Source: Thraustochytrium sp. TN22 (lineage: Eukaryota; Sar; Bigyra; Thraustochytrida; Thraustochytriidae). Taken from it: DNA of 64,000 bases. A model generated the notes under the pieces. The model did no database searches. It saw only the letters and a program-made list of their open reading frames with translations, and was not told the DNA's origin. The stretch covers positions 124,001-188,000 of the forward strand of contig JABLUY010000024.1 in NCBI GenBank assembly GCA_013306675.1, given 5' to 3'. Of the stretch, positions 10,670 to 61,482 are shown piece by piece (the stretch's first letter is position 1; each line of letters begins with the position of its first letter). Made by a program: the position numbers and the translations under genes.

Positions 10670-12595
10670 TTAGAGCTTCGAGGAGGGCGCGACGGTGCCG
10701 ATCTCGTACTCGGCAGCGTACTTGGGGATGATCTCCGGCTTGTGGAGCATGTCAAAGGCCTCGGTGGCATCCTTGCCGCCGTAAAGGAGAATGGCCTTGG
10801 CGCCACCGGGGTGCTCGTCCAGGAAGGGGGTGATGTCGTACACCTTGTCCTTGAGGATGACCCAGCAGTCGTCCTTGGAGGTGTGCTTCTGGATCTCCTC
10901 CATGGTGTACTGCTTGGAGGCGGCGGCCTCCTTCTTCTCGCCACCCTCGCTGGCGCCCTGCTCGTAGAAGGCAGAGTTGGGGTCGCGCTCGGCGGGGCCG
11001 TCGTCCTCGAGGGCGGCGGCGGAGGAAGCCGACTTGGCGCCGGACTTGCCCCAGGAGACCGTGACGGAGTTGGAGGCCGGGTCCACGTTGACGTTGAAGG
11101 CGCCACCAGCGCCGCCCGCGCCGCCCGCGACGAGCTTGTCGAGGAGGAAGCGCGAGGCGGTCTGGCCGGCCTTGCGACCGTAGACGACGCAGTCAAGGAG
11201 ACTGGAGCCGCCCAGGCGGTTGGTGCCGTGGATGCCGCCGATGATCTCGCCACCGGCGAAGAGACCCTTGATGGGCTGCTCGTCGGCGGTGATGACCTCG
11301 GCCTCGGCCGAGGTGGCGATGCCGCCCATGCAGTAGTGCACGATGGGGGTGATGATGGCGACGTGCCAGGTGTCGTCGTCGACCGAGAGCGGGAGCGCCT
11401 CAAAGTACTTCTTCTGCCACTCGTCCTTGTCCGCCTCGGCGTTCTTGTTGTACTTGTCGAAGTTGGCCTGGAGCTTCTCCGGGGCAACGTTCATCTCCTT
11501 GGCGAGCTCCTTGCCGGTCATCTTCTTCATGAGACCGCGCTGCACGTAGTGGTCGCAGTGCCACTGGATGAGCGCGCTGGCCTTGCCGTTGAGGCACAGG
11601 CGGTAGGGCGGCTGGCCCCAGACGAGCATGCGGCCGCTGACGTAGTCGCGCTTGCCGAGCTCATCGCAGAAGCGGTTGCCGTTCTTGTCGAGGATGACAC
11701 CACCCGAGCCGCGGAGAGCCTCGGCGGCCAGGAACTTGACCTTGGCGTCCGGCTCGTTGGGGTCGACGATGCCGGTGGGGTGGATCTGCACGCAGTGCAG
11801 GTCACGGGTGGAGCCGCCCACGGCGAGCGACATCTTGATGCCGTCGCCGGTGCAGTGCGGGCCGTTGGTGGTGGGCAGGGTCAGCAGGGGCGGCATGGGG
11901 ATCTTCTTGCCGTTGCTCTGCTTGGCCGCGCGGGAGGTGGTGCTCCAGGCCTCCATCTTGGCGAAGTCGTCAGAGACCTGGGCCAGGAGGGAGTCCTCCG
12001 AGAAGTCGGCGCCAAAGCCGCCCGTGCACAGAATGACCGGGCCGTACTCCTTGTAGGTCTTGCCGCCCTTCTCGAAGATGACACCGACGATCTCATCGCC
12101 CTCCTTGATGAGCTCCGTCACGCGGGCCTTGTTGATGAGGCGCGCGCGGCCGTCCTTCTTGTCGCAGATGGCCTCGTAGGCCTCCATGAGGCCGTACGTG
12201 ATGGCCATGCCCGGGAAGCGCTCCTTGCCGCGGTGCGTGCGCGGGTTCGAGTGCGCCGCGAGACGAGCGATGATGGACAGGTCCAGCTGGAACTTGTCCT
12301 TGAGCCACTCCAGCGCCGGGCCCGACTCGTACGTGAGAACGCGGATCAGGTCGTCGCGGGCGCCCTCGGCGGCCGACACCTTGGTGTCGTTGAAGAACAC
12401 CTCCGGCGAGTCCTCGATGCCCAGCGCGCGCTGCGAGCTGGTGCCCGCGGCGTTCATGCCCGAGGTCGCCTTGGTCGAGTTGCCACCGCAGAACGGCGAC
12501 TTGTCCAGCAGCAGGGTCCGGCCACCCGCCTGGAGGACGGTGTGCGCGGCCGACATGCCACTCAGGCCACCGCCAACAATGATCACCTGGCTCAT
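10670..12595 (-). CDS. Soluble FAD-dependent fumarate reductase fused to cytochrome b5, C-terminal SKL
   Basis: A 641-residue flavoprotein that should reduce fumarate to succinate. The FAD-binding N-terminus is MSQVIIVGGGLSGMSAA (GGGLSG, residues 8-13) with no presequence. Family active-site motifs include CVQIHPTGIVDP, NRFCDELGKRD and GGIHGTNRLGGSSLLDCV, closely matching the yeast Frd1/Osm1 type. A Gly/Ala-rich linker leads to a cytochrome b5 domain (about 555-635) with haem ligands H595 (EHPGG) and H618 (DMLHK). The protein ends SSKL, a canonical type-1 peroxisomal targeting signal. The b5 domain suggests electron entry from a b5 reductase or NAD(P)H flavin domain elsewhere. Yeast enzymes are mitochondrial, ER or cytosolic, and kinetoplastid ones are glycosomal. 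Fusion and targeting are read directly; direction of catalysis is inferred. Confidence 0.92.
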   Translation of the reverse strand: MSQVIIVGGGLSGMSAAHTVLQAGGRTLLLDKSPFCGGNSTKATSGMNAAGTSSQRALGIEDSPEVFFNDTKVSAAEGARDDLIRVLTYESGPALEWLKDKFQLDLSIIARLAAHSNPRTHRGKERFPGMAITYGLMEAYEAICDKKDGRARLINKARVTELIKEGDEIVGVIFEKGGKTYKEYGPVILCTGGFGADFSEDSLLAQVSDDFAKMEAWSTTSRAAKQSNGKKIPMPPLLTLPTTNGPHCTGDGIKMSLAVGGSTRDLHCVQIHPTGIVDPNEPDAKVKFLAAEALRGSGGVILDKNGNRFCDELGKRDYVSGRMLVWGQPPYRLCLNGKASALIQWHCDHYVQRGLMKKMTGKELAKEMNVAPEKLQANFDKYNKNAEADKDEWQKKYFEALPLSVDDDTWHVAIITPIVHYCMGGIATSAEAEVITADEQPIKGLFAGGEIIGGIHGTNRLGGSSLLDCVVYGRKAGQTASRFLLDKLVAGGAGGAGGAFNVNVDPASNSVTVSWGKSGAKSASSAAALEDDGPAERDPNSAFYEQGASEGGEKKEAAASKQYTMEEIQKHTSKDDCWVILKDKVYDITPFLDEHPGGAKAILLYGGKDATEAFDMLHKPEIIPKYAAEYEIGTVAPSSKL

Positions 12596-14230
12596 CTTGA
12601 ACGAGGTGAAAGGCTTCTTGCTAAGCTAGACTGTTTTCCGCGCGGTGGACGTCAGTTTCTCCTTGTTCTCTGCTTCTTGCAGCAACCGTGAGTGGATCTA
12701 GGAAATCCATCACGGGACGCGCTCCGCCAGGGCCCTGGACAGACACACAAGCACGCCGCATACTCGAGGGTGCACCAGTGTCTGCGCCAGCGTCTGCGTC
12801 TGCGTCTGCGTCTGCGCGCAGCGCCTTGCAAGGCCCCTCGCTCACCTCCCCTCGCCTCGCCTCGCCTCACCTCCCCTCGCCTCGCGAGCACTTCGAAATT
12901 CCTGCCGAACAGGCCGGCTCGTCATGCGTGCGAGGCAAGTGAGCAGGCCTCGCTCGCCAAGGATCCTTGGCCGCGCGGAGCGCGGGGCGCGGCGCGGCCT
13001 GCGCCACGGCCGCGCGCTCGCTCTCGACCACGGCCTCCTCGTCCTCGTCCTCCTCCTCGCCCTCCATGCTCACGTACCTCTCGCAAACACGGGCGTCTGT
13101 GCCCGTCTCGTGCTTGGATGCAATCTGGGTCTGCCTGTCTCCGCCTGGGACTGCCTTGCCGCCCTTGCATTCGTTCCGTTCATCGGATCCCCCGAGAGGG
13201 CGGCCGCCGGCGCCTGCTTCCTCGCGGTCGCCGCTCCGCGCGGAACCCGGCGCGCGGGGGCCCTGTGGATCCCCCGAGGGACGGCCCGGCGCTCCGTCAC
13301 TGCGCCGCCGCAGGGGGGGGGGCCGCCCAGTGGGCGCGGGGGGTGCGGCGCGCGGCGCAACGCGGTGAAATGGGCCCGTCGGGACTTGCAAGAGCGAGCA
13401 GGCCTCGGACCTGCACGAGGGCGGGCAGCGCGGCGCCCTTGGCAGCCACAGGCGACTCGGAGGGAAAACGAAATCCAAGCGCCTGAAATGAAAGGAAACA
13501 GGCAGGCCGAGCCGGGGCTGAGGCGCCGCTCGCGCCGGCAAGCCTGGTTAGGAGCAGGAGGGAGGGAGTGCGGCGGCGCGGCCGGCGGCTCGGAGGTGGC
13601 TGCCAAGCCCCGCCCCGTGCTGTCGAAGGCTGGCGTCGAGGAGGATGCTGGGAGACGGGTCGGACCGCCAAGGACGCTGCCCAGGACGACAAGCGCGTGC
13701 TCGCCGAGGACGACGGCCAGTCCGTCGCGATCGCCGCGTGTGCCGCGCCGCCGCCTCGCGCAGCGGCTCGCGCAGCGGCCAGCGGGTGGTCTGCAGGGGC
13801 TCTGCAGCGGGTTTAGAGCTCAGACCTCCCCCTTCGTGGCGGCCAGCCCGCGGCCTGCCTGAGACGTCGCCAGCCGCTCCGGCGCGCTCCGGCGGAATGT
13901 GACCATGACGCTTCTCGGCTTCTCCGCGCCGAACGGAGGCCGCCCCGCCCTTGGCCGCGTTGGCGCCGAGCGCCGGCGCCTCGCTAATCGCGGCGGAGCG
14001 CTCGTACCCGGCCAGGGGCTGGAGCAGCAGCGTGGCCACGTTCGAAACGCCCAGTGACTCCGGGAGCAGAGTTCGAGTCCACGGTGGCACTGCGGCGGCG
14101 GCGGCAGCGCGGCGCGCGGGCCGCGGGCGTAGCGTTGCGTGGAGTGGAGTGAAGTGGAGTGGAGAGGAGAGGAGAGGAGTGGAGTGGAGTGTCGGCGGCA
14201 GCGGCGCGCGCACGCTTCGCGCGGACCGCC
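12596..14230. other. Divergent intergenic region between fumarate reductase and RTF2
   Basis: A 1.6 kb bidirectional promoter region. The left part is pyrimidine-rich on + (CTCGCCTCGCC-type repeats, 12838-12890). A G10 run lies at 13313-13322. A GGAGT/GGAGA pentamer tract lies at about 14137-14190, before the RTF2 ATG. Several overlapping frames of 200-310 codons are open on both strands, but they are Arg/Ala/Pro-rich, mutually exclusive and without recognisable domains, so I do not call them. Confidence 0.55.
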
Positions 14231-55238: not shown

Positions 55239-56492
55239 ATGCTGGCGCGCGGGCAGGCGCGGGCGGCCGCAGGGCGCGCGGCGGCGCAGTGGCAGGCGAC
55301 GCGCGGCGTGACGGCGTTCGCGCAGCGGTGGCCGGAGATCAAGGCCAAGGCGCTGCTGGGCGGCGGCGAGGACCGCATCGCCAAGCAGCATGAGCGCGGC
55401 AAGCTGACGGCGCGCGAGCGCATCGCGCTGCTGCTGGACCACGGCTCCTTTATCGAGTACGACAGCCTCAAGTTGCACCGCTGCACGGACTTTGGCATGG
55501 AGAAGCAGCAGTACTACGGCGACGGCGTGGTGACGGGCTACGGCTACATCAACGGGCGGCCGGTCTTTGTGTTCTCGCAGGACTTCACTGTCTTCGGCGG
55601 CAGTCTCAGCGAGACGCACGCCGAGAAGATCTGCAAGATCATGGACAAGGCCATGAAGGTGGGCGCGCCCGTGATTGGCATCAATGACTCGGGTGGCGCG
55701 CGCATCCAGGAGGGCGTGGCCTCGCTCGGCGGCTACGCCGAGGTCTTCCAGCGCAACGTCGAGGCCTCGGGCGTCGTGCCGCAGATCAGCCTCATCTGCG
55801 GCCCCTGCGCCGGCGGTGCCGTCTACAGCCCGGCCATCACGGACTTCACCATGATGGTGCGCGACACCTCGTACTGCTTCATCACCGGCCCCGAGGTCGT
55901 CAAGACCGTCACCCAGGAGGAGGTCACCCAGGAGGAGCTCGGCGGCGCCAAGGCGCACATGACCAAGTCCGGCGTCGCGCACCTCGCCTACGACAACGAC
56001 GTCGAGGCGCTGCGCATGACCCGCGAGCTCTTCGACTTCCTCCCGCTTAGCAACAGCTCCGAGGTCCCGCGCCGCGAGACGCTCGACCCGCGCGACCGCG
56101 CCGACCCCACGCTCGACATGATCGTCCCGGAGGACCCCAACCACCCGTACGACATGAAGATCATCATCCGCAAGGTCCTCGACGAGATGGACTTTTACGA
56201 GATCCAGCCCGACTTTGCCAAGAACATCGTCGTCGGCTTTGGCCGCCTCGATGGCCGCACCGTCGGCGTCGTCGGCAACCAGCCGCTCGAGCTCGCCGGC
56301 TGCCTCGACATCAACTCCTCCACCAAGGCCGCCCGCTTTGTGCGCTTCTGCGACGCCTTCAACATCCCGCTCGTCACCTTCGTGGACGTGCCCGGCTTCC
56401 TCCCCGGCACCGCCCAGGAGCACGGCGGCATCATCCGCCACGGCGCCAAGCTCCTCTACGCCTACGCCGAGGCCACCGTGCCCAAGCTCACC

Positions 56493-56536
<44 letters not shown>

Positions 56537-56825
56537 CTCCAAGCACCTCCGCGCCGACACCAACCTTGCCTGGCCCTCGGCCGAGATCGCCGTCATGGGC
56601 GCCAAGGGTGCCGTCGAGATTATCTTCCGCGGCAAGAACGTCGAGGAGGAGACCGAGCGCTACAAGGAGCGCTTTGCCAACCCTCTTGTCGCCGCCGCTC
56701 GCGGCTTTGTCGACGACATCATTGTGCCCTCGGCTACCCGCCGCCACCTCTGCGAGGAGCTCGAGCTCCTCCAGGGCAAGAAGGAGCACCGCCCCAGCCG
56801 CAAGCACGGCAACATTCCTCTTTAA
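55239..56825 (+). CDS. PCCB: Propionyl-CoA carboxylase beta chain, mitochondrial
   Basis: 528 residues from the ATG at 55239. The N-terminus ([20 protein letters not shown]) is Arg/Ala-rich without acidic residues, as expected of a mitochondrial presequence. The carboxyltransferase core starts at about 40 ([20 protein letters not shown]). It carries the acyl-CoA and carboxybiotin oxyanion loops [35 protein letters not shown] and [20 protein letters not shown], then [18 protein letters not shown]. It ends with the usual RKHGNIPL. Length matches human PCCB (539). With an alpha subunit encoded elsewhere it carboxylates propionyl-CoA to methylmalonyl-CoA, from odd-chain lipid, Val, Ile, Met and propionate. 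The overall motif set fits PCCB better than MCCB. A neighbouring propionate CoA-transferase supports a propionate role. Confidence 0.94.
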
Positions 56826-57473: not shown

Positions 57474-58883
57474 ATGAGCCTCCTGAGCAAGGCGAGCCTG
57501 GAGGATGTGGAGCTGCAGGGCAAGCGCGTGCTGATGCGCGTGGACTTCAACGTGCCGTTCGACAAGGCGACGGGCGAGATCAGCAACGATCAGCGCATGG
57601 TGGCGGCGCTGCCCAGCATCCAGTACGCGCTGGACAAGGGCGCCAAGTCGGTGGTGCTCATGTCGCACCTGGGCCGGCCGGACGGCCAGCCCAACGCCAA
57701 GTTCTCGCTCAAGCCCGTGGCGACGCGCCTCGGCGAGCTGCTCAAGCGCGATGTGACCTTCCTCGAGGACTGCGTCGGCGAAAAGGTCGAGGCGGCCTGC
57801 GCCGACCCGGCGTCTGGCTCCGTCATCCTGCTGGAGAACCTGCGCTTCCACATCGAGGAGGAGGGCAAGGGCAAGGACGCCGAGGGTAACAAGGTCAAGG
57901 CGGACGCGGACAAGGTCGAGGCCTTCCGCGCCTCCCTCACCAAGCTCGGCGACGTCTTCGTCAACGACGCCTTCGGCACGTGCCACCGCGCGCACTCCTC
58001 CATGGTTGGCGTCAAGCTGGAGCGCGTCGGCGGCTTCCTCGTCAAGAAGGAGCTCGACTACTTTGGCGCGGCGCTGCAGGATCCCGCGCGTCCCTTCGTC
58101 AGCATCCTCGGTGGTGCCAAGGTCGAGGACAAGCTCAAGCTCATCATGAACATGCTCGACATCGTCAACATCATGATCATCGGCGGCGGCATGGCCTTCA
58201 CCTTCAAGAAGGTCGCCGGCATGGAGATTGGTGGCAGCCTCTTCGACGAGGCCGGCGCCGAGCTCATCCCCAAGATCCTCGAGAAGGCCAAGGCCAAGGG
58301 CGTCGAAATCTACCTGCCCTCGGACTTCATCGCCGCCGACAAGTTTGCCGCCGACGCCGAGAACAAGGTCGTCACCGAGGAGGAGGGCGTGCCGGAGGGC
58401 TGGATGGGTCTGGACATTGGCCCCAAGTCTGGCGAGGAGTTTGCCAAGGTCATCGCCTCGGCCAAGCTCGTCGTCTGGAACGGCCCCATGGGCGTCTTTG
58501 AGTTCCCCAACTTCGCCAAGGGCACCAAGGCCGTCATGGATGCCGTCGTCGACGCCACCAAGGCCGGCGCCACCACCATCATCGGCGGCGGCGACACCGC
58601 CACTTGCTGCACCAAGGAGTACTTTGACACCGAGGACAAGGTTTCCCACGTCTCCACTGGCGGCGGCGCCTCGCTCAACCTCCTCGAGGGCGTCGAGCTC
58701 CCCGGTGTCGCTGCGCTCAGCGAGAAGAAGGTACGCCAGACCGCCTCCATCCCGCTCACGAAGGCGGCGCCTGCCAAGGCCTCCGGTCTCATGGCGCGTC
58801 TCGAGGAGCACCCCCTCGCTGTCGCTGGTGTTGCCGCCCTCGCCGTTATGGCCCTCTCCGCTGCTCTCGCTCGCAGGAACTGA
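57474..58883 (+). CDS. PGK: Phosphoglycerate kinase with C-terminal membrane tail
   Basis: 469 residues from the ATG at 57474 ([20 protein letters not shown]). Core PGK motifs are intact: RVDFNVPFD (3-PG site), [64 protein letters not shown] and the nucleotide loop IGGGDTATC...[10 protein letters not shown]. It makes 3-phosphoglycerate plus ATP from 1,3-bisphosphoglycerate. After the usual end ([10 protein letters not shown], about 418), a 51-residue extension ends in a single hydrophobic segment (about 447-466, [19 protein letters not shown]) and RRN, so it looks tail-anchored. Leishmania and Crithidia PGK-C carry a hydrophobic C-terminal extension for glycosomes, which is the closest precedent I know. 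In-frame upstream ATGs (57099, 57153) could add an N-terminal extension; I prefer 57474. Confidence 0.93.
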
Positions 58884-59286
58884 CTCTCCGTACTCTACGC
58901 GCGCTCACAGGCTTGATGACGATGCTCTATCCCAAGAAAATGTTTCAGCATCTGCTTGACATCTCACGTTGCCTTTCCTCCCTGTGAGGAGTGACCATCG
59001 GCTCCAAGGCTTGCCTGCCTTTTCATAGAAGCGAACTTATTCTAAGAAAAAACGCTACACACTGCATGCATCGCATGAGTCACCTTCACCGCCTTGCCAC
59101 TGCAGGATGTCGCATCTCCGCCACAACGAGCGATCATCACTGACAGTCGGATGTCTCGAGTCCTTTCTTATCTACGTAATTGCAGTAATTGCATGCAGGT
59201 CAGCCGAGTTGGTAAACACCGTGCATGAGCATGAGCTCGTGCACGTGGATGTGATTTTGCCCCGTCGCCGCTTTATGTTTTCAAAC
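58884..59286. other. Convergent 3' region, PGK and propionate CoA-transferase
   Basis: 403 bp, AT-richer than the surroundings. It contains TTATTCTAAGAAAAAACGC (about 59037-59055) and ATGCATGCAT-like sequence. No gene seen. Confidence 0.6.
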
Positions 59287-61482
59287 TTAGGCCGCCTTGT
59301 TCTCAATGGTCTCCTTGAGGCGAGTCATGACGTCATCAAAGTCGGAGCGGGAGACATTTTGAGTGCCGTTTCCGAGGATACGGAGGATGTCGCGGTTGGA
59401 GAAGTTCATCTGCAGAAAGTCCTCGACGCCCTCCTTGAAGGTGGAGCGGGAAATGGTATCGTCGCCCTTGCTGATGGTCTCCCAAATATCGGCGTTGGAG
59501 CTGAGGTTCATGTCGCGGACGAGCTTCTGGCGGGAGAACGCCTTGCCGCCGAGGCGCCGGATGCTGAGTAGGTAGCGCTCGTCAATGTCCTCGAGCAGCC
59601 TGGTGAGCTCCTCGGCGTACTCGGGGAGGATGTCACTGCGCTCATAGGTGGCGATACAATGCACCTTGTTGAGGCCGTTGTCGGTGATGCGGTCGAGGTT
59701 CTCTCTGACCTCGTCGCAGAGCGCGTGCAGGGTCTTCTCGTTACGCACGCAAATGCCGCTGCAGTCCATGAAGAGCGTGTTGGTGTCCTCCTTGAAGTGT
59801 AGACGCTTGGAGAAGGCGCTCTGGTCGCGGAAGAAGTCGTCTTCCATGACCATCTGGTCGTCGCGGAAGATGCGCTCGTCCATGAGCTTGACGTTCTCCT
59901 TGTTGACGATGGGCTTGGGGTCCATGTACGGGAGGATCTGCGTGTCAATGTCGATGCCGGGAGCCACCTCGGTCAGCTCGAGGCCCTCAGGGGTCAGCTC
60001 GAAGACGGCGCGCTCCGTGATGTAGCGAACGTTCTGCGCCATGGCGAGCGCCTGGTCGCCGGAGAAGGTCACCTCGCGCACCGAGGTGAACATGGGGATC
60101 TCGCCCTCCTGGTCAATGACCAGCTTGCCATCCTTAGTGGACACCTTGAGGCCCTTCTTGGTGAAGGTGCCGAGGAAGTTGACGCGGTGCGTGGACTGGG
60201 TGATGTCAATGAAGCCGCCCGGGCCGATGTAGCGCTCGCCGAGCTTGGACACATTCACGTCGCCGTTGCCGGCGTCGATCTCCGCCGCGCCCAGGTAGCA
60301 GATGTTGAGGCCGCCGCCGTTGTAAATGTCAAACTGCTGCGAGGTGTCCACGCAAGCCTGCGGGTTGTAGGCCGGGCCAAAGTTGTGGCCGCTCAGACCG
60401 AGACCGCCAAAGAGGCCAGCCTCGGTCGTCAGCGTGACGTACTTGAGGATGGACTCCTCCGCCGCGACGTTGGCCACGAACTCGGGCGCGCCAATGCCAA
60501 GGTTGACCATGTCGTACGGGCGCAGCTCCATCGCGGCGCGGCGGCCCATGATCTTCTTGGGCGACATGGGCAGGCGCGGTAGGTCGTCGAGCGGGATGCG
60601 CACCTCGCCGGACTGCGCCGGGTCGTAGCCCTGGTAGTAGCCCATGCGACCCTTGTGTTCCGGGTCCGCCAGCACGATGGCGTCCACCAGCGGGCCGGGC
60701 ACCTTGACGTCGCGCATGCTGAGGGAGCCGGCCTGCGCGATGCGGTCCACCTGCGCGATCACGATGCCGCCGCTGGCGCGCGCCGCCGTGGCCAACAGCA
60801 GCGGGTCCGGCGACACGCTCTCGTTCTCCAGGGTCAGGTTGCCGTCCGTGTCGGCCGTGGTGGCCTTGATGATGCTGACCTCAATGTTGATGGGCTTATA
60901 GCGCAGGAACTCCTGGTCGTCGATCGTCACAACCTCGACCAGGTCAGTCTTGGTGAACTCGTTCAGCTTGCCACCGGCGTGCCGCGGGTCCACGAAGGTA
61001 CCGAGGCCCACCTTGGTGAAGTGCCCGGCCGTGTTGCTCGCGCGGCTGCGCACCATGCGGGCCACCGAGCCCATCGGCAGCGCGTACGCCTCGATCTCGT
61101 TCGCGCGAATGAGCGGATGCAGGTCTGGGCTCTGCCCAAAGTGGCTCGCCACCACGCGCTTCAGCATGCCCTTGTGCTTGAAGTGGTTCGTGCCGCGCTC
61201 GCCCTCCGGGTCGCCGCACCCAAAGAACATGAGCGTCAGGTCGCGCGGCGCCTGCGTCTCCTGAAAGTGCGCGCCCAGAGCGCGCAGCACCGTCTCCGGC
61301 AAGGCCTGAGTCACGAATCCGGAGATCAGCACCGTGTCGCCGCTACGCACCAGCGACGCCGCATCGCGCTTGTCCACCACCTTACTCTGCGACATGGTCG
61401 TGAACAGGCTGCGATACCGCCTGAACTCCTTCACCGGAGCCGCGCGCGCCCACGGGCGCGCCAGCTTCGACAGCCCCGCCAT
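59287..61482 (-). CDS. Propionate CoA-transferase (type I), mitochondrial, with C-terminal extension
   Basis: 731 residues. The N-terminus MAGLSKLARPWARAAPVKEF plus RRYRSLFTT is a typical mitochondrial presequence. Residues about 33-540 closely follow bacterial propionate CoA-transferase (Pct): ALVRSGDTVLISGFV-type start, GLGTFVDPRHAGGK, MGRRAAMELRPYDMVNLGIG, and the catalytic glutamate E354 in TLTTEAGLFGG. It exchanges CoA between acyl-CoA (propionyl-, acetyl- and possibly succinyl-CoA) and free acids. Residues about 560-660 form the extra domain also seen in many bacterial homologues (LFMDCSGICVRNEKTLHALC). The final 70 residues add EF-hand-like helices (ISRSTFKEGVEDFLQMNFSN). In eukaryotes such enzymes act in acetate or propionate formation coupled to succinyl-CoA. 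It may cooperate with PCC, whose beta subunit is encoded 2.5 kb away. Confidence 0.92.
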   Translation of the reverse strand: MAGLSKLARPWARAAPVKEFRRYRSLFTTMSQSKVVDKRDAASLVRSGDTVLISGFVTQALPETVLRALGAHFQETQAPRDLTLMFFGCGDPEGERGTNHFKHKGMLKRVVASHFGQSPDLHPLIRANEIEAYALPMGSVARMVRSRASNTAGHFTKVGLGTFVDPRHAGGKLNEFTKTDLVEVVTIDDQEFLRYKPINIEVSIIKATTADTDGNLTLENESVSPDPLLLATAARASGGIVIAQVDRIAQAGSLSMRDVKVPGPLVDAIVLADPEHKGRMGYYQGYDPAQSGEVRIPLDDLPRLPMSPKKIMGRRAAMELRPYDMVNLGIGAPEFVANVAAEESILKYVTLTTEAGLFGGLGLSGHNFGPAYNPQACVDTSQQFDIYNGGGLNICYLGAAEIDAGNGDVNVSKLGERYIGPGGFIDITQSTHRVNFLGTFTKKGLKVSTKDGKLVIDQEGEIPMFTSVREVTFSGDQALAMAQNVRYITERAVFELTPEGLELTEVAPGIDIDTQILPYMDPKPIVNKENVKLMDERIFRDDQMVMEDDFFRDQSAFSKRLHFKEDTNTLFMDCSGICVRNEKTLHALCDEVRENLDRITDNGLNKVHCIATYERSDILPEYAEELTRLLEDIDERYLLSIRRLGGKAFSRQKLVRDMNLSSNADIWETISKGDDTISRSTFKEGVEDFLQMNFSNRDILRILGNGTQNVSRSDFDDVMTRLKETIENKAA

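Follow-up and report, generated by a model that had tools for sequence, protein, structure and literature searches.

The window, by which we mean the whole 64,000-nt stretch of the Thraustochytrium sp. TN22 contig analysed here, carries on its forward strand an intact phosphoglycerate kinase (PGK) gene that occupies a frame of 469 codons and ends in a TGA stop (58881-58883). A codon model trained on the window itself marks segment 57474-58856 as coding. The features of this locus that are relevant to the present analysis are the following:

57474..58883, + strand: PGK coding frame, read through, 469 aa plus stop
57474..58730, + strand: canonical PGK, residues 1-419, supported by Pfam, PDB and alignment matches
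58731..58880, + strand: C-terminal extension, residues 420-469, 50 codons beyond the canonical end LSEKK
58815..58871, + strand: hydrophobic helix, residues 448-466, 19 residues, KD mean 2.35
58872..58880, + strand: short positive tail RRN, directly after the hydrophobic helix
58731..58910, + strand: candidate intron of 180 nt, a rival reading of the 3' end, removal of which gives a product ending LSEKKA and a stop
58731..58736, + strand: donor-like GTACGC at the canonical C-terminus, in the context AAG/GTACGC
58880..58884, + strand: branch-point-like CTGAC, which overlaps the TGA stop and begins 31 nt upstream of where the candidate intron ends
58904..58910, + strand: acceptor-like CTCACAG, followed by G, at the end of the candidate intron

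The assignment to the PGK family (PF00162) is based on a full-length domain that retains the conserved positions for substrate and nucleotide: the Pfam match covers PGK residues 9-406 and family positions 1-378 of 379 (E=3.6e-149), and residues 1-419 are 62-66% identical to each of 21 other aligned sequences. Twelve positions, which we take to be substrate or nucleotide contact sites, are invariant in all 22 aligned PGKs (D24, N26, R41, H65, R68, R124, R172, K216, K220, E343, D374 and T375) and, for this reason, the enzyme is probably active. The sequence-only reading had placed the normal end of PGK at about residue 418, in agreement with the PDB comparison, where the best stretches stop at residues 415-421 in 46 of the 47 distinct matched sequences, the remaining one being a fragment (2-68). 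The N-terminus, with five acidic residues among the first 30, has no N-terminal signal, and the mitochondrial leader that characterizes the matrix PGKs of stramenopiles is missing if translation starts at 57474.

The extension, which runs from V420 (58731) to N469 (58880), is present as had been claimed, with the correction that it comprises 50 rather than 51 residues past LSEKK. The single terminal helix of about 20 residues capped by RRN is likewise recognizable, as the 19-residue stretch listed above; by comparison, the best KD window in the body of the enzyme reaches 1.68. A single hydrophobic helix situated in roughly the last 30 residues, with no N-terminal signal, is the sequence architecture of a tail-anchored protein. 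When the last 55 residues were modelled alone with AlphaFold2, a helix was predicted at P447-R468 (pLDDT about 80-90), preceded by a short helix at 439-445, with a mean pLDDT of 70.7. When the whole protein was modelled, pLDDT fell below 50 across residues 421-469 and the helix was absent, a result that carries little weight, given that no homologue of the tail is present in the alignment. Alanine is abundant in the helix, and its insertion sum over 19 residues is only -0.66, a crude value on a literature scale; nevertheless, none of 20,000 shuffles gave a sum this low in an open frame. In a Pfam search of the tail, the sole match (PF12911, E 0.035) fell below the cut-off of that family.

Searches for relatives of the tail returned nothing beyond the tail itself in its own genome at E values up to 10, and no relatives in IMG/VR. 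Among 80 bacterial PGK loci kept from the 510 relatives found in GTDB, none extends beyond the canonical end by more than 12 residues. In the open-licence literature searched, no paper describing a tail-anchored PGK came up for organisms other than kinetoplastids.

The hydrophobicity of the tail is unlikely to have arisen by chance. Under dinucleotide shuffling the frame stays open in 48% of cases, and it is both open and equally hydrophobic in one of 20,000 shuffles, a frequency (1/20,000) that was the same in block-wise shuffles with each of three block sizes; when the requirement is relaxed to a KD of at least 1.6 no more than 8 residues from the end, 0.16% of the shuffles pass. In the non-genic frames of the window, a KD of 2.35 is reached by 154 of 69,599 open 19-residue windows, and such a helix falls within the last 30 residues in 1 of 691 open frames of at least 50 codons. 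Among 33 codon-scored open frames of the window, a set that includes opposite-strand shadows, PGK is the only one in which the most hydrophobic late window (KD of at least 2) starts in the last 30 residues.

Codon use was examined as a further indication of whether the tail is coding. The tail has a codon adaptation of 0.43, compared to 0.67-0.92 for windows of 50 codons across the PGK body, and a lower value occurs in only 0.13% of the windows taken from ten other genes; at the same time, this value exceeds that of every wrong-frame window in the same ten genes (maximum 0.28). Under a whole-gene codon model the tail beats a composition-only synonymous null (P=0.027), and under a model trained on the final 50 codons of 40 further genes it does so with P=0.005, and its frame outscores the two other frames as well as the three post-stop frames. 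The tail scores above 7 of those 40 gene ends, a comparison that is biased in favour of the gene ends given that they belonged to their own scoring model. The T-ending codons of the tail are unusual relative to the PGK body, and its T3 of 0.22 is higher than in any of the 40 gene ends (maximum 0.20). Within genes of this genome, third positions show a gradient toward the 3' end, with G falling and C and then T rising (nine genes), and T3 rises over the final 50 codons in 28 of the 40 genes, the set of 40 including those at 55275-56822 and 59287-61482 of the window; such a gradient could either mimic or mask changes in coding potential near gene ends. Owing to this gradient, the tail's low codon adaptation is a weaker argument for an intron than it would appear. 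Altogether, the codon use of the tail, far below that of the PGK body as it is, fits that of real gene ends and is coding-like.

As reference for the candidate intron, we used 17 introns read in the same genome in Ras-type and UBC genes (L137-L145, L150, L151 and L153), their junctions having been chosen by the expected homology. The donor is GTACGT in 11 of the 17, position +6 of the donor is T in 16 and C, as in the candidate, in one (L153), and a CTRAC motif (of the CTGAC/CTAAC type) lies within 80 nt of the acceptor in 15. Judged by these sites, the segment 58731-58910 appears to be a fair, not an ideal, intron. Matches of this kind also occur within genes: 29.7 kb of coding sequence contain 12 GTACGC, 22 branch-plus-acceptor matches and five donor-acceptor pairs. 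By a rough estimate, the presence of an intron would make these sites about 36-fold more probable, and the prior for an intron at this position is about 0.3%, a figure built on the intron density in the available part of PMC7073664, where 4,623 introns across 14,145 genes are given for a thraustochytrid. An alternative acceptor at 58876 was considered and dismissed, given that it would yield a 36-residue tail unlike any PGK end.

The distribution of introns among other genes was surveyed as well. All 13 glycolytic matches (2 PGK, 4 GAPDH, 2 TIM, 1 full enolase, 1 iPGM and 3 PK), a count that leaves out two weak partial matches to enolase, have the domain in a single open frame, and so do 11 of the 12 actin-family loci. 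The twelfth actin locus, L099 (C7:43135-43891), is a truncated, frame-broken copy. At least nine Ras-type loci are split by introns, and the possibility that the genome is nearly intron-free was rejected on the strength of such split Ras-type matches. In 14 introns of this genome read in three frames, none of the 964 open 19-residue windows reaches a KD of 2.0, the maximum being 1.14.

Given these observations, the tail-anchor interpretation put forward in the sequence-only reading holds with respect to the sequence architecture and the coding-like character of the tail, whereas it is weakened by splice signals that could remove the tail altogether. The favoured reading is that one isoform at least carries a genuine tail anchor, and we put the probability that the anchor is genuine and belongs to the main product, a leaderless and probably active PGK, at roughly 0.5. 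This weight, like those behind the rankings of the three other explanations below, is a judgement, not a computed posterior.

The strongest of the other explanations, which we nevertheless consider unlikely, is that the extension is a translated intron, such that splicing of 58731-58910 would give a soluble PGK with an end of the canonical kind and the helix would be a chance product of a pyrimidine-rich intron. An artefact at the 3' end had been named in advance as a danger to the tail anchor, and the donor-like site lies exactly at the canonical end, with branch-point-like and acceptor-like motifs downstream; the resemblance to the reference introns, with their GTACGT donors and CTRAC motifs, and the departure of the tail codons from those of the gene body point in the same direction. 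The coding-like tail counts the other way, however, and so do the choice of in-frame codons, which beats the composition null, the C at position +6 of the donor, the sparsity of introns in similar genes (the glycolytic and actin families) and the hydrophobicity itself, which has no parallel in the open windows of the 14 introns and appears once in 20,000 shuffles. The coexistence of splice signals with a coding-like tail would also be compatible with the production of both forms, in which case some transcripts would keep a weak intron and others would lose it, yielding a soluble and a membrane-anchored PGK from one gene. The rarer donor variant (C at +6, 1 of 17) would suit a regulated site, and there is a fungal precedent, namely readthrough of PGK in U. 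maydis and alternative splicing or readthrough of GAPDH (in the accessible portion of PMC9549241). Conversely, the candidate signals could be a coincidence of the kind represented by the five donor-acceptor pairs in coding sequence, and the retained product would carry a helix rather than PTS1; we rank this dual arrangement next after the translated intron and likewise regard it as doubtful. Finally, the tail could be translated without forming a bilayer anchor, with the helix serving in lipid-droplet association, oligomerisation or rapid turnover. The abundance of alanine and the small insertion sum would be compatible with such a role, but the helix is sufficiently long, uncharged and capped by RR, in the manner of classic tail anchors, and an equally low insertion sum in an open frame is absent from the 20,000 shuffles. 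We consider this the least probable of the alternatives and a very unlikely one.

If the tail anchor is real, its destination has to be considered against the rest of the glycolytic complement. The assembly holds two PGK genes, of which the one described here is leaderless; the other (L001) opens with the mitochondrial-type leader MLGRAAAAAAVRGTRVPGGARGLASAAS, which contains four Arg, has no acidic residues in its first 30 positions, and ends canonically (...ITALSDK). The single iPGM match (L147, C324) and the single gene for a full-length enolase (L090, C41) each have an acid-free, Arg-containing extension at the N-terminus. These leader calls (L001, L147 and L090) assume that there are no 5' exons beyond the frames read, and absence of acidic residues is a weak criterion taken alone, given that the GAPDH L085 passes it within its own enzyme sequence; it is the extension ahead of the enzyme that counts. 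In three of the four GAPDH frames nothing precedes the enzyme sequence, and the remaining one (L087) carries a different N-terminal extension; of the two pyruvate kinases read, L148 is without such a leader and L149 has a long extension. Cytosolic counterparts of iPGM and enolase would require members of other families or alternative starts, the search for mutases having covered the iPGM family. Weak partial enolase matches occur in two other long frames, L091 (C393) and L092 (C128), with E values of 2e-7 and 5e-5, both passing the family cut-off. With respect to genes for targeting, the genome has one match to Pex19 and five to ArsA/Get3, two of them strong. On the opposite strand of the window, at 10670-12625, there is an FAD-binding protein of fumarate-reductase-like type that carries a cytochrome b5 domain at its C-terminus and has a PTS1-type end (SSKL), and the only link between this protein and PGK is that they lie in the same window.

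The mean tail charges given for human tail anchors in the available text of PMC5450235 are 0.21 for the ER, 1.12 for mitochondria, 2.5 for anchors shared by mitochondria and peroxisomes, and 6.03 for peroxisomes, and yeast ER anchors are described in the same text as having GRAVY above 1.75. By these values, taken as far as that text extends, the charge of +2 in the PGK tail falls between the human mitochondrial and shared mitochondrial/peroxisomal means, and the GRAVY of the helix (2.35, inflated by alanine) falls within the yeast ER range. Charge and GRAVY together do not allow an organelle to be named and suggest a weak lean to mitochondria. The mitochondrial outer membrane ranks as the most likely location, followed by dual mitochondrial and peroxisomal targeting, with the ER less likely.

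According to the proposed mechanism, the terminal helix would insert post-translationally in the outer membrane of the organelle, with RRN on the far side of the membrane and the whole catalytic domain remaining cytosolic; here we infer the presence of the tail in the mature mRNA, its insertion and the organelle. A likely role would be to place the cytosolic GAPDH-PGK step beside mitochondria. Because the only iPGM and full-length enolase genes detected carry mitochondrial-type leaders, 3-phosphoglycerate and ATP would be set free close to their site of uptake. If this holds, glycolysis in the cytosol would be interrupted at 3-phosphoglycerate, and the natural point of hand-over would be a PGK bound to the surface of mitochondria. 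The complete scenario, in which the only leaderless PGK of the assembly is held on mitochondria on their cytosolic side, or is moved on and off that surface through retention of a terminal intron, and passes 3-phosphoglycerate to the only PGAM and full-length enolase found, is one that we regard as quite improbable. If it is true, a membrane-tethered glycolytic step would exist independently of kinetoplastids, with 3-phosphoglycerate as the metabolite that crosses. In the part of PMC6198282 available, the glycolytic intermediate imported by stramenopile mitochondria is treated as not known, and an outer-membrane PGK in combination with leader-bearing iPGM and enolase would make 3-phosphoglycerate a directly testable transport candidate.

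The leader-bearing enzymes L001, L147 and L090 resemble the mitochondrial pay-off glycolysis of stramenopiles, for which the same portion of PMC6198282 describes isoforms of PGK, PGAM and enolase that bear mitochondrial leaders at the N-terminus. In that system import relies on leaders, and a C-terminal anchor is absent from the description as available. The TPI-GAPDH fusion described there for other stramenopiles was not seen here, the two TIM and four GAPDH matches being located in separate frames (L084-L089; C288, C321, C432, C89, C12 and C51). Classical tail-anchored proteins such as FIS1 have one C-terminal helix and a short tail, the charge of which steers them to an organelle (PMC5450235, in the text available); the helix and the short positive tail of PGK follow the same design, whereas the examples described in that text are not glycolytic enzymes. 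The cryptic peroxisomal PGK and GAPDH of fungi (U. maydis and others; PMC9549241, in its accessible portion) are similar in that a C-terminal extension could give the enzyme a second address. Unlike these fungal extensions, which are described there as carrying a PTS1, none of the products examined here has the canonical [SAC][KRH][LM] end: readthrough of the TGA adds LSVLYARSQA and ends in SQA, and no splice product under 60 residues is canonical. Three choices of acceptor give products ending in SSL, a non-canonical look-alike of PTS1.

The glycosomal PGKC of Leishmania has, in the available part of PMC7729029, an extension of 63 residues in which hydrophobic and charged stretches alternate and which is nearly the sole difference from PGKB; in L. 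mexicana a transmembrane helix is predicted at 451-472 with two Arg at the end, and shorter or related extensions are present in the PGKs of Crithidia and Leptomonas. Compared by description, the two systems share a PGK with a C-terminal extension in which a predicted helix has RR at or after its end (here 448-466 and RRN). They differ in that the tail here has 50 residues and in that the paralogue is distinguished by an N-terminal leader of the mitochondrial type. If the tail anchor described here is real, it would represent a second route, besides the kinetoplastid one, to a membrane-bound glycolytic enzyme, possibly under splicing control. By this analogy, Leishmania PGKC appears to be the closest known counterpart of the thraustochytrid enzyme, with a close resemblance that lies in the plan of the protein.
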